DNA from: an uncultured Clostridia bacterium
Lineage (GTDB): Bacteria > Bacillota > Clostridia > Oscillospirales > Ruminococcaceae
Length of the DNA: 64,000 bases
Direction of reading: 5' to 3'
Assembly: GCA_948473085.1 (NCBI GenBank)
Contig: CAOKWH010000002.1
Span: forward strand, 91,035-155,034
Every line of letters begins with the position of its first letter. Within the stretch, counting starts at the first letter, position 1. The translations under genes were made by a program, and so were the position numbers. Under the pieces are notes generated by a model, which was not told the DNA's origin, did no database searches, and saw only the letters and a program-made list of their open reading frames with translations. This document shows, piece after piece, positions 58,371 to 62,159 of the stretch.

Positions 58371-60686
58371 ATGCTCACCAAAATCATCAAACGGGACGGC
58401 CGGGAGGTGGAATTTGACCGCAGCAAGATAGCCGAAGCCATCTTTAAAGCGGCCCAGGTGCTGGGCGGAAACAACTATGAAATGGCCAAGGACCTGGCCG
58501 AAAAGGCCGAGGCCCATGTGGAACAAGCCCACCCCGGCATTGTGCCTACGGTGGAGCAGGTACAGGATGCGGTGGAACACACCCTGATTGAGCATGGCCA
58601 CGCCCGCACGGCCAAGGAGTACATCCTCTACCGGGCCGAGCGCACCCGGGTGCGGGAGATGAACACCCGCCTGATGAAAACATTGGAGGATTTGACCTTT
58701 AAGGACGCCGTGGACAACGATGTCAAGCGGGAGAATGCCAATATTGACGGCGATACGGCCATGGGCACCATGCTCAAGTATGGTTCGGAGAGCGCCAAGC
58801 AGTTCTATGAGATGTATGTGCTTAACCCCCGGCACTCCAAGGCGCACCGGGAGGGGGATATTCACATCCACGACCTGGACTTTTTAACCCTGACCACCAC
58901 CTGCTGCCAGATTGATATTGTCAAGCTGTTCCAGGATGGCTTTTCCACCGGCCACGGCTTCCTGCGGGAGCCCAACGATATCCAGAGCTATTCCGCCCTG
59001 GCCTGTATTGCCATCCAGTCCAACCAGAACGACCAGCACGGCGGCCAGAGCATCCCCAACTTTGACTATGGCATGGCGGTGGGCGTAGCCAAAACCTACG
59101 CCCGGCTGTATACCAAAAACCTGGCCAAAGCTGCCGAAATCCTGCTGGACAAGGTGGACATGGAGGAGCGCTTTAAGGAGATAAAGGCCCGGATTTATGC
59201 CGAAACCGGCAAAAAGCCGCTGCTGGAAAACAGCGGGGAATACTGCGCGCTGGAACGCCCCTATCTGGCCGAGCTGGTGGGGGAAGAGGCCGAACGCCTC
59301 CAGCAGCTTGCCATCAAGTATGCCGAGCGGGAAACCGAGCGGGCCACCTACCAGGCCATGGAGGCACTGGTACACAACCTGAACACCATGCACTCCCGGG
59401 CAGGGGCCCAGGTGCCATTCAGCTCCATCAACTATGGCACCGATACCTCCCCGGAGGGCCGGATGGTGATAAAAAACATCCTGTTGGCGGAGGATGCCGG
59501 CCTGGGCAACGGTGAAACCCCCATCTTCCCCATCCACATCTTCAAGGTGAAGGAGGGGCTGAACTACAAGGAGGGGGAGCCCAACTACGATTTGTTCAAG
59601 CTGGCCTGCAAGGTTTCGGCCAAGCGGCTGTTCCCCAACTTCTCGTTTATTGACGCCCCGTTTAACCTGCCCTATTATAAGCCCGGGGATTACAACACCG
59701 AGGTGGCCTATATGGGCTGCCGCACCCGGGTTATGGCCAACCATTACGACCCCAGCCGGGAGATTACCTGCGGCCGGGGTAACCTGAGCTTCACCTCCAT
59801 CAACCTGCCCCGGATTGCCATCAACGCCCATGGCAATGTGGAGTGGTTCTTTGAGGATTTGGAGCGCAAGGTGGATCTCTGTATCGAACAGCTCACCGAG
59901 CGCTTTAAAATCCAGGCGGCCAAAAAGGTGCGCAACTACCCCTTCCTGATGGGACAGGGGGTTTGGCTGGATTCCGAGGCCCTGGGCCCGGACGACAGCG
60001 TGGAGAAGGTGCTGGGCCACGGCACCCTGACTATTGGCTTTATCGGCCTGGCCGAGTGCCTCAAGGCGCTGATTGGCAAGCACCATGGCGAGAGCGCCGA
60101 GGCGCAGAACCTGGGGCTGGAAATTGTGGGCTACATCCGCCAGCGCATGGATGAGGAGAGTAAGAAAACCGGCCTGAACTTCTCGCTGATTGCCACCCCG
60201 GCCGAAGGGCTGTCCGGCCGCTTTGTCCGGATGGATCGGAAGAAATTCGGCACTATCCCCGGCGTTACCGACCGGGATTACTATACCAATTCCTTCCATG
60301 TGCCGGTGTACCATGAAATCAATGCTTTTGATAAAATCCGGCTGGAGGCGCCCTACCATGCCTTAACCAACGGCGGGCATATCACCTATATTGAGATGGA
60401 CGGCGACCCGCTGAAGAATTTGGAGGCCTTTGAATCGGTTATCCGCTATATGAAGGAGTGCGGCATCGGCTATGGTTCCATCAACCATCCGGTGGATCGG
60501 GACCCGGTGTGTGGCTACACCGGCATTATTGACGAGGTCTGCCCCCGATGCGGCCGCCGGGACGGCGAAGGGGTCAGCCTGGAACGGCTGCATAAGCTGG
60601 GGCTGTACCGCAACCTGAACGCCGACACTTTGGGCTACCACGGCGACGCCGCTGAGGAGGCCGACCGCCGGCCCAACAGCCTATAA
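58371..60686 (+). CDS. nrdD: Anaerobic ribonucleoside-triphosphate reductase catalytic subunit lacking the glycyl-radical segment
   Basis: ATP-cone N-terminus MLTKIIKRDGREVEFDRSKI; DIHIHDLDF; SINHPVDRDPVCGYTGIIDEVCPRCGRRDGEGV; ends ...LGYHGDAAEEADRRPNSL with no RxxGYL motif. Confidence 0.93.
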   Translation: MLTKIIKRDGREVEFDRSKIAEAIFKAAQVLGGNNYEMAKDLAEKAEAHVEQAHPGIVPTVEQVQDAVEHTLIEHGHARTAKEYILYRAERTRVREMNTRLMKTLEDLTFKDAVDNDVKRENANIDGDTAMGTMLKYGSESAKQFYEMYVLNPRHSKAHREGDIHIHDLDFLTLTTTCCQIDIVKLFQDGFSTGHGFLREPNDIQSYSALACIAIQSNQNDQHGGQSIPNFDYGMAVGVAKTYARLYTKNLAKAAEILLDKVDMEERFKEIKARIYAETGKKPLLENSGEYCALERPYLAELVGEEAERLQQLAIKYAERETERATYQAMEALVHNLNTMHSRAGAQVPFSSINYGTDTSPEGRMVIKNILLAEDAGLGNGETPIFPIHIFKVKEGLNYKEGEPNYDLFKLACKVSAKRLFPNFSFIDAPFNLPYYKPGDYNTEVAYMGCRTRVMANHYDPSREITCGRGNLSFTSINLPRIAINAHGNVEWFFEDLERKVDLCIEQLTERFKIQAAKKVRNYPFLMGQGVWLDSEALGPDDSVEKVLGHGTLTIGFIGLAECLKALIGKHHGESAEAQNLGLEIVGYIRQRMDEESKKTGLNFSLIATPAEGLSGRFVRMDRKKFGTIPGVTDRDYYTNSFHVPVYHEINAFDKIRLEAPYHALTNGGHITYIEMDGDPLKNLEAFESVIRYMKECGIGYGSINHPVDRDPVCGYTGIIDEVCPRCGRRDGEGVSLERLHKLGLYRNLNADTLGYHGDAAEEADRRPNSL

Positions 60687-60739
60687 CAACCACACAGAAG
60701 CGGCAGCCTGCCGCTGTTTGATAAGGAGGTTCTTTTACC

Positions 60740-60904
60740 ATGAGCGAAAAGGAAATGATGATTGGCGAGGGTATCAAGTTTGAGCGTATCCGGCGTATTA
60801 CCGGCTATCTAGTGGGCACACTGGACCGCTTTAACAACGGCAAGCGGGCCGAGGAGTCCGACCGGGTTAAGCATTCGGTATCCGGCAGCCTGGAACATAT
60901 CTAA
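60740..60904 (+). CDS. Standalone glycyl-radical polypeptide of class III RNR (split NrdD C-terminus)
   Basis: Read directly: MSEKEMMIGEGIKFERIRRITGYLVGTLDRFNNGKRAEESDRVKHSVSGSLEHI; aaggagg RBS at ~60723; different frame from nrdD, 53-nt gap. Confidence 0.88.
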   Translation: MSEKEMMIGEGIKFERIRRITGYLVGTLDRFNNGKRAEESDRVKHSVSGSLEHI

Positions 60905-60969: not shown

Positions 60970-61626
60970 ATGTCGCCGCAGGAAGAGAGAGCATTTATAG
61001 AGCGGGCTTTTCAAAAATTGCAGCAACGCGGATGGTTCCGGGAGCAGGTTCTGGCGCGTTCCAACATTTCTGCCCAGGAAATTGCAGCATTTGAGCGGGA
61101 ACGCCAGATAACACTGCCTTCGCTCTACAAGGCGTTTTTAACTTCCTTTTTGCTTCCGCAAAAGGAGGGCGATATTTGTTCCATCATCGAACAGGATGAG
61201 GACCTCGACGCCCTTTGGCTAATGCTGGATAGCCCCAGAGAAATGAAGGATATTGCCAGGCGTACGGAAATTTTACAGGAAATCCGGGAGTTTTGCGAGC
61301 TGCCGGAGGATTGCTTTCAAAATTTGATACCCATTGGCGACTGGGGCGCTGGTTGGGGGCCGCTGTGTATCGACCTGTCCAGGCCGGAGGATGAGGTGAA
61401 CCGGGATAGGAAGGAAACCTGGACCCTGGTCTGGTTCGACCACGAGGAGTTTGACTGGGAGGAGCGATATTTGGGGGAGGATGGGCTGCTGCATGGACGG
61501 GCGGCCCTGCCGGATTTTAAAACCCTGTTGGAGTGGTATTTTTGCGGGATCTTGGAGGAGCGGTTCGAGCAGGAGGAGGGGATAACACCCACCTACCAGT
61601 GGTACCAGGATACGCTGAAGCGATAA
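60970..61626 (+). CDS. SMI1/KNR4 (SUKH) family protein
   Basis: ISAQEIAAFERERQITLPSLYKAFLTSFLLP...LIPIGDWGAGWGPLCIDL. Confidence 0.78.
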   Translation: MSPQEERAFIERAFQKLQQRGWFREQVLARSNISAQEIAAFERERQITLPSLYKAFLTSFLLPQKEGDICSIIEQDEDLDALWLMLDSPREMKDIARRTEILQEIREFCELPEDCFQNLIPIGDWGAGWGPLCIDLSRPEDEVNRDRKETWTLVWFDHEEFDWEERYLGEDGLLHGRAALPDFKTLLEWYFCGILEERFEQEEGITPTYQWYQDTLKR

Positions 61627-61640
61627 AAGGAGGATGTAAT

Positions 61641-62159
61641 TTGATACGAATTTGCGGCGTGGTGCGGGAATCCATTGTGGATGGCCCCGGCCTGCGCTTT
61701 GTACTGTTTACACAGGGCTGCCCCCATGCCTGCCCCGGCTGCCACAACCCGGAGAGCCATGCGATGGATGGCGGCTATCTGGTGAGCGGGGAAAAGGTGC
61801 TGGAGGAGTTTAAAAGGAATCCGCTTCTCAAGGGCATTACCCTGTCCGGCGGGGAACCGGTGCTGCAGGCAGAGGAACTGATCCCCCTTTGCCGGGAGGT
61901 GCATGCCCTGGGCAAGGATGTGATGCTCTACACCGGCTACACCTATGAGGAGCTGCTAAAACAGGGCTCCCCGGCAGCGCTGGCACTGCTCCAGGAGGTG
62001 GACACCCTGGTGGACGGCCGCTTTGTGCTGGCCCAACGGGATTTGACCCTGACCTACAAGGGCAGCCGGAACCAGCGTATTATTGATATGAGGCGCACCC
62101 GGGAAACCGGGGAGGTTGTGCTGGATGCTGTGGAGGAACAGAACATCCGTATGGACTAA
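61641..62159 (+). CDS. nrdG: Anaerobic RNR activating protein (radical SAM)
   Basis: TTG start behind aaaggagg; LIRICGVVRESIVDGPGLRFVLFTQGCPHACPGCHNPESHAMDGG with CX3CX2C-type cluster motif. Confidence 0.94.
   Translation: MIRICGVVRESIVDGPGLRFVLFTQGCPHACPGCHNPESHAMDGGYLVSGEKVLEEFKRNPLLKGITLSGGEPVLQAEELIPLCREVHALGKDVMLYTGYTYEELLKQGSPAALALLQEVDTLVDGRFVLAQRDLTLTYKGSRNQRIIDMRRTRETGEVVLDAVEEQNIRMD

Follow-up and report, generated by a model that had tools for sequence, protein, structure and literature searches.

A class III ribonucleotide reductase gene split ahead of its glycyl-radical loop, with the radical very likely carried in trans by a 54-residue protein

Delivery of a glycyl radical in trans is established for YfiD, which supplies it to pyruvate formate-lyase (PFL) (PMC8683613). 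GrcA/YfiD and T4 Y06I, the autonomous PFL cofactors, are small stand-alone homologues of the enzyme's C-terminus that can provide the radical from a separate chain; only YfiD and Y06I have been validated, and spare parts for other enzymes have been speculated upon (Andorfer et al. 2021, PMC8683613). Ribonucleotide reductases (RNRs) encoded in pieces have also been described, namely the class II NrdJa/NrdJb, an RNR in two genes with its C-terminal parts on a second chain (PMC9669993), and phage nrdD genes that occupy more than one open reading frame (ORF) (PMC3653736). Here we describe a class III RNR of an uncultured Clostridia bacterium (Ruminococcaceae) encoded within the window, by which we mean the whole stretch of 64,000 nucleotides analysed (contig CAOKWH010000002.1 of assembly GCA_948473085.1). 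The features of the locus, in window coordinates, are as follows.

58371..60686, forward strand: nrdD, catalytic subunit without the radical loop, 771 residues (PF03477 4-92; PF13597 1-531 of 562; NF005497)
60510..60551, forward strand: zinc-site cysteines C714...C724xxC727 kept in NrdD, the final conserved block ahead of the split (invariant among aligned split NrdDs; aligned to CxxC...CxxC of 8p23)
60561..60683, forward strand: lineage-specific C-terminal tail of the split NrdD, ~41 residues, DGEGVSLERLHKLGLYRNLNADTLGYHGDAAEEADRRPNSL (homologous tails in other split NrdDs)
60699..60715, no strand assigned: intergenic hairpin AGCGGCA-GCC-TGCCGCT between nrdD and the small gene (fold z = -2.2)
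60723..60729, forward strand: Shine-Dalgarno AAGGAGG of the small gene (read from the sequence)
60740..60904, forward strand: putative stand-alone NrdD glycyl-radical subunit, 54 residues (PF13597 533-562; alignment with 35 relatives)
60803..60805, forward strand: predicted radical glycine Gly22 in RRITGYL (alignment to the RITGYL glycine of 8p23_A)
60970..61626, forward strand: SMI1/KNR4 (SUKH) family gene between the radical subunit and nrdG (PF09346 E 2e-7)
61641..62159, forward strand: nrdG, radical-SAM activase (TIGR02491 146.7 bits, above cut-off)

The NrdD chain comprises an ATP-cone, a ten-stranded barrel, the MGCRTRV loop with Cys450 and a Cys-rich zinc region; it ends in CPRCGRRDGEGVSLERLHKLGLYRNLNADTLGYHGDAAEEADRRPNSL at its stop codon, and its alignment to Prevotella copri NrdD (8p23) reaches chain residue 705. 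The NRDD model PF13597 (562 positions) is covered by the two proteins in a complementary manner without overlap, NrdD matching positions 1-531 (648 bits) and the 54-residue protein positions 533-562 (E 4e-8, above the curated cut-off); in NCBIfam NF005497 (746 positions) they cover 1-740 and 710-745, respectively. The RRITGYLVGT motif of the small protein aligns with the radical loop of 8p23, and its Gly22, invariant in the alignment with 35 relatives, corresponds after a 4-residue offset in the 8p23 chain to Gly711, the published radical glycine of P. copri NrdD (PMC11226230). The small ORF lies 53 nt behind nrdD in a different frame, with an in-frame TAA (60722-60724) followed by AAGGAGG and then ATG. 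An earlier note, made from the sequence alone, had claimed a separate small ORF with its own ribosome-binding site in another frame, encoding the missing NrdD C-terminus, and both points held. Its claim that NrdD stops at 60686 just after the Cys region held only in part, the end being correct but a conserved tail following the cysteines.

Other elements of the locus are of less certain relevance. Hairpins like that at 60699-60715 are also present at two further loci (L163 and L171); whether this one sets the relative expression of the two subunits is no more than a possible inference, its function being unknown. The SUKH gene is likely not part of the enzyme; SMI1/KNR4 (SUKH) genes often encode toxin immunity proteins. 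At NrdD residue 711 (60501-60503), Asp replaces the first Cys of the usual CxxC...CxxC zinc site, a clade-wide substitution seen in split and intact forms.

The split arrangement is conserved in this bacterium and many relatives. In a family sample of 299 genomes searched with the 54-residue protein, many best matches fell in short open frames, and the loci, once fetched and parsed, gave 43 distinct family loci (window included) in which a truncated NrdD is followed by a radical protein of 50-78 residues. An ATG and an upstream Shine-Dalgarno-like site accompany the small gene in 43 of 43, the relative frames of the two genes are distributed 13/19/11, and their spacing runs from -11 (overlap) to about 600 nt, often below 53 nt. 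Of 42 distinct relatives, 38 have nrdG close downstream in the same orientation; the nearest relatives are Hydrogenoanaerobacterium saccharovorans An564 (L063, 88% NrdD identity) and Candidatus Avimicrobium faecavium (L065). Order-wide, a short-frame relative with a (V/I)GEG(V/I)xFERIRR-type start was listed in 75 of 397 genomes from seven families (a count of listed rows). Among 20 order loci fetched elsewhere, 18 lie behind a truncated NrdD with a homologous tail; of the other two, one runs into a contig end and the other is an additional, unlinked copy. Isolate and single-contig genomes also show the split. In a class-wide sample, short-frame matches of about 50-80 residues were confined to the bacterium's own order, and the matches listed outside it were in intact NrdD or a longer stand-alone form (discussed below), a few fragments aside. 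Phage origin was also considered; phage records match only part of the 54-residue protein, and most are unannotated faecal contigs. As separate observations, one genome (G373, L229) has a tandem pair of small radical genes behind a single truncated nrdD, and another (G377; L222, L234) carries extra unlinked copies of the small gene.

These comparisons bear on several simpler accounts of the locus. A sequencing or assembly frameshift could have broken a single nrdD, and such breaks do occur in drafts: one metagenome-assembled genome has an nrdD broken mid-gene (L138), and in another genome (G902; L247, L248) nrdD is interrupted before the zinc region with its C-terminal part on another contig, likely an insertion or assembly break and not a domain split. 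Both were excluded as real breaks. In the split loci, however, the zinc region invariably lies on one side of the break and FERIRR on the other, NrdD has gained a conserved tail, the small protein has an N-terminus, ATG and Shine-Dalgarno-like site of its own, and the arrangement recurs in 43 family loci and 18 more in the order, isolate and single-contig genomes among them; the artefact is all but excluded. The earlier note had argued against it from the separate translation initiation. Alternatively, programmed frameshifting or ribosome bypass could fuse the two adjacent, co-directional genes into one NrdD. Against this stand gaps ranging from overlap to about 600 nt, the occurrence of all three relative frames, a conserved NrdD tail that would be pointless in a fused product, and the existence of unlinked versions, which leave this account almost no room. 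An intein or intron was also rejected, given a gap of only 53 nt here and often shorter elsewhere, and a chance ORF is ruled out by the model match, conservation across dozens of genomes and dN/dS.

The cut lies between the zinc region (CPRCGR) and FERIRR, two elements that in intact relatives are joined by a linker of only some 7-12 residues. Split NrdDs have at this position a tail of roughly 16-55 residues, most opening with GExVSxEKLxxL, and no homologous tail was found in the intact relatives compared. The small proteins, in turn, have acquired a short N-terminal stretch that finishes with VGEGVG or a like motif. AlphaFold modelling of NrdD alone gives a largely confident barrel and a disordered, low-confidence tail, a prediction that is compatible with ordering upon binding without proving it. 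Within the genus, the small ORF has a dN/dS of 0.06-0.17 and the NrdD tail one of 0.09-0.14, and both are under purifying selection. A further alternative holds that the pair is a decaying, non-functional nrdD in a cell living on salvage or an undetected RNR; the detached-loop genotype does resemble a truncation. Decay is nonetheless virtually ruled out by these dN/dS values, by active-site residues invariant in the alignment of split NrdDs, by the persistence of the same state across a bacterial order, and by a genome 99.7% complete without another detected RNR.

The window genome (1.89 Mb) has no PF13597 match besides the two split parts and no match to PF02867 or PF17975, so that no class I/II large-subunit domain was found. 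The same holds for six further genomes (G062, G004, G163, G167, G249 and the single-contig G187), where PF02867 and PF17975 are absent and the only NrdD matches are the two split parts. Since these seven yielded no further RNR of class I, II or III, the split enzyme is presumably the working one, and it likely performs the cell's ribonucleotide reduction, an activity inferred from the absence of another detected RNR. Four other genomes (G146, G229, G185, G279) combine the split form with a further NrdD over the full model, and a class I/II RNR is present in 6 of the 19 genomes searched; in some relatives the split form therefore need not be the sole RNR. A related objection is that the 54-residue protein serves only as a spare for oxygen repair while NrdD uses another radical source. 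In its favour, PFL has spare parts (PMC8683613), and some relatives have a longer stand-alone protein alongside intact NrdD. The NrdD here, however, lacks a radical glycine, and the genome encodes no PF13597 protein besides the pair; the 54-residue part is therefore not merely a spare, and we regard this objection as very unlikely to hold.

The longer stand-alone NrdD radical protein, of about 90-105 residues (90-120 over the loci listed below), has an extra N-terminal domain and the same radical loop at its end. Its N-terminal domain has no Pfam match above cut-off, and AlphaFold predicts a beta-alpha-beta-beta fold for it at low confidence; with a pLDDT of 60, the model of the longer protein was too uncertain to support a fold search. 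Two sets of loci are relevant here.

L143-L158, L209-L213, L235, L236: longer stand-alone radical protein
L121, L123, L130, L237, L240, L243, L246: NrdD genes that end inside the FERIRR remnant, directly ahead of the radical glycine; their genomes encode a stand-alone radical protein at an unlinked site

The longer protein coexists with intact NrdD in G133 (a single-contig genome), G048 and G208, and its gene lies directly downstream of intact nrdD in G917 and G933; by analogy, it may be a spare part there. In at least seven genomes (G300, G301, G303, G015, G206, G259, G864), NrdD stops just before TGY, leaving remnants such as FERIPRL or CERIPRIKV, and the sole other PF13597 match is the unlinked longer protein. 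A class I/II RNR was looked for in G300, G301 and G303, and none was found. These loop-less genomes are the strongest comparative support for function in trans, and thereby for the earlier note's proposal that the radical is carried by a second protein, radical formation on the 54-residue protein itself remaining an inference. In the tree, the loop-less NrdDs L121, L123 and L130 are sister to a clade that includes G133's intact NrdD (L027). Loop-less NrdDs with an unlinked partner thus look like a transition from spare part to obligatory subunit.

Taken together, we consider it very likely (probability about 0.9) that the locus encodes a two-subunit class III RNR with its glycyl radical carried in trans. 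The analysis establishes that the gene is split, that this arrangement is conserved and under purifying selection, that it shares an operon with nrdG and that no other RNR was detected; docking, radical formation and activity are inferred, with no expression, binding, EPR or activity data. In the proposed enzyme, the large NrdD would provide the ATP-cone, barrel, thiyl-radical loop and zinc region, and the separately translated 54-residue protein would contribute the two elements that normally cover the active site, the glycyl-radical loop and the C-terminal tail. The small protein would most likely first bind NrdD next to its zinc region and conserved tail, whereupon NrdG would place the radical on Gly22; from there the radical would pass to the NrdD cysteine as in an ordinary class III RNR. 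By inference alone, a plausible benefit is that when oxygen cleaves the chain at the glycyl radical, just a cheap, replaceable subunit would be lost.

How the split arose is less clear. A single gain was tested by tree: split and intact forms are interdigitated in the NrdD core trees, and parsimony on the core tree requires 11-14 changes, of which at least 5-6 are forced by well-supported branches. Because most tails share the GExVSxEKLxxL start, we favour a single origin followed by allele exchange, without excluding independent origins. A bolder reading, which could as easily be wrong as right, is that many class III RNRs of clostridia consist of unlike subunits, a small exchangeable one carrying the radical glycine. 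The stand-alone radical proteins would then have started out as spares beside intact NrdD; with them in place NrdD could lose its own loop, and the enzyme would become obligately two-part, with oxygen damage limited to a subunit that can be discarded.

No description of a stand-alone NrdD radical protein or of this two-protein class III RNR was found in the open-access literature searched, which yielded split class II RNRs and phage nrdD genes interrupted by introns or inteins. The earlier note had stated that such a description, an intact second NrdD in the genome or a sequencing error restoring a single ORF would refute its reading, and that recurrence of the split in related genomes should be checked; none of the three refutations materialised, and the recurrence was found, single-contig genomes included. 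If the reading is true, a separate protein can hold the radical residue of a glycyl-radical enzyme that is essential for making DNA, which offers a natural system to study radical installation and transfer across a protein interface. Moreover, in these common gut bacteria the catalytic residue can escape both genome annotation and surveys of NrdD sequences.

The locus resembles class III RNR NrdD (PF13597, TIGR02487; P. copri 8p23) in its ATP-cone, barrel, MGCRTRV loop, zinc region, RRITGYLVGT loop and operonic nrdG, but the radical loop and C-terminal tail form a separate 54-residue protein and NrdD has a novel 41-residue tail. Of the criteria for this class, the NRDD catalytic domain with radical-loop homology is met across two proteins, and the dedicated radical-SAM activase NrdG is met (TIGR02491 above cut-off); a radical glycine on the barrel polypeptide is not, as NrdD ends before FERIRRITGYL. 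Phage split nrdD genes differ in reflecting introns, inteins or unexplained recent fragmentation, without a conserved radical subunit (PMC3653736). NrdJa/NrdJb differs in being a class II enzyme with a cobalamin radical, whose second chain has IscU-like and zinc domains and no radical glycine (PMC9669993); its criterion of a class I/II large-subunit domain is not met in the window genome. The analogy with GrcA/YfiD, drawn by the earlier note, is apt for mechanism and not for family: in contrast to GrcA/YfiD and Y06I, the 54-residue protein belongs to NrdD and not PFL, with PF13597 its sole Pfam match and no match to PF01228 (Gly_radical). The GrcA/YfiD criterion of a target enzyme with its own radical loop is also not met, no intact NrdD being present in the genome. 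As the enzyme here lacks its own loop, the 54-residue part is inferred to be obligatory and not a repair spare; the longer stand-alone protein beside intact NrdD is the closer functional analogue of GrcA/YfiD. The split NrdD supports the published, untested suggestion that spare-part proteins serve enzymes besides PFL (Andorfer et al. 2021, PMC8683613).
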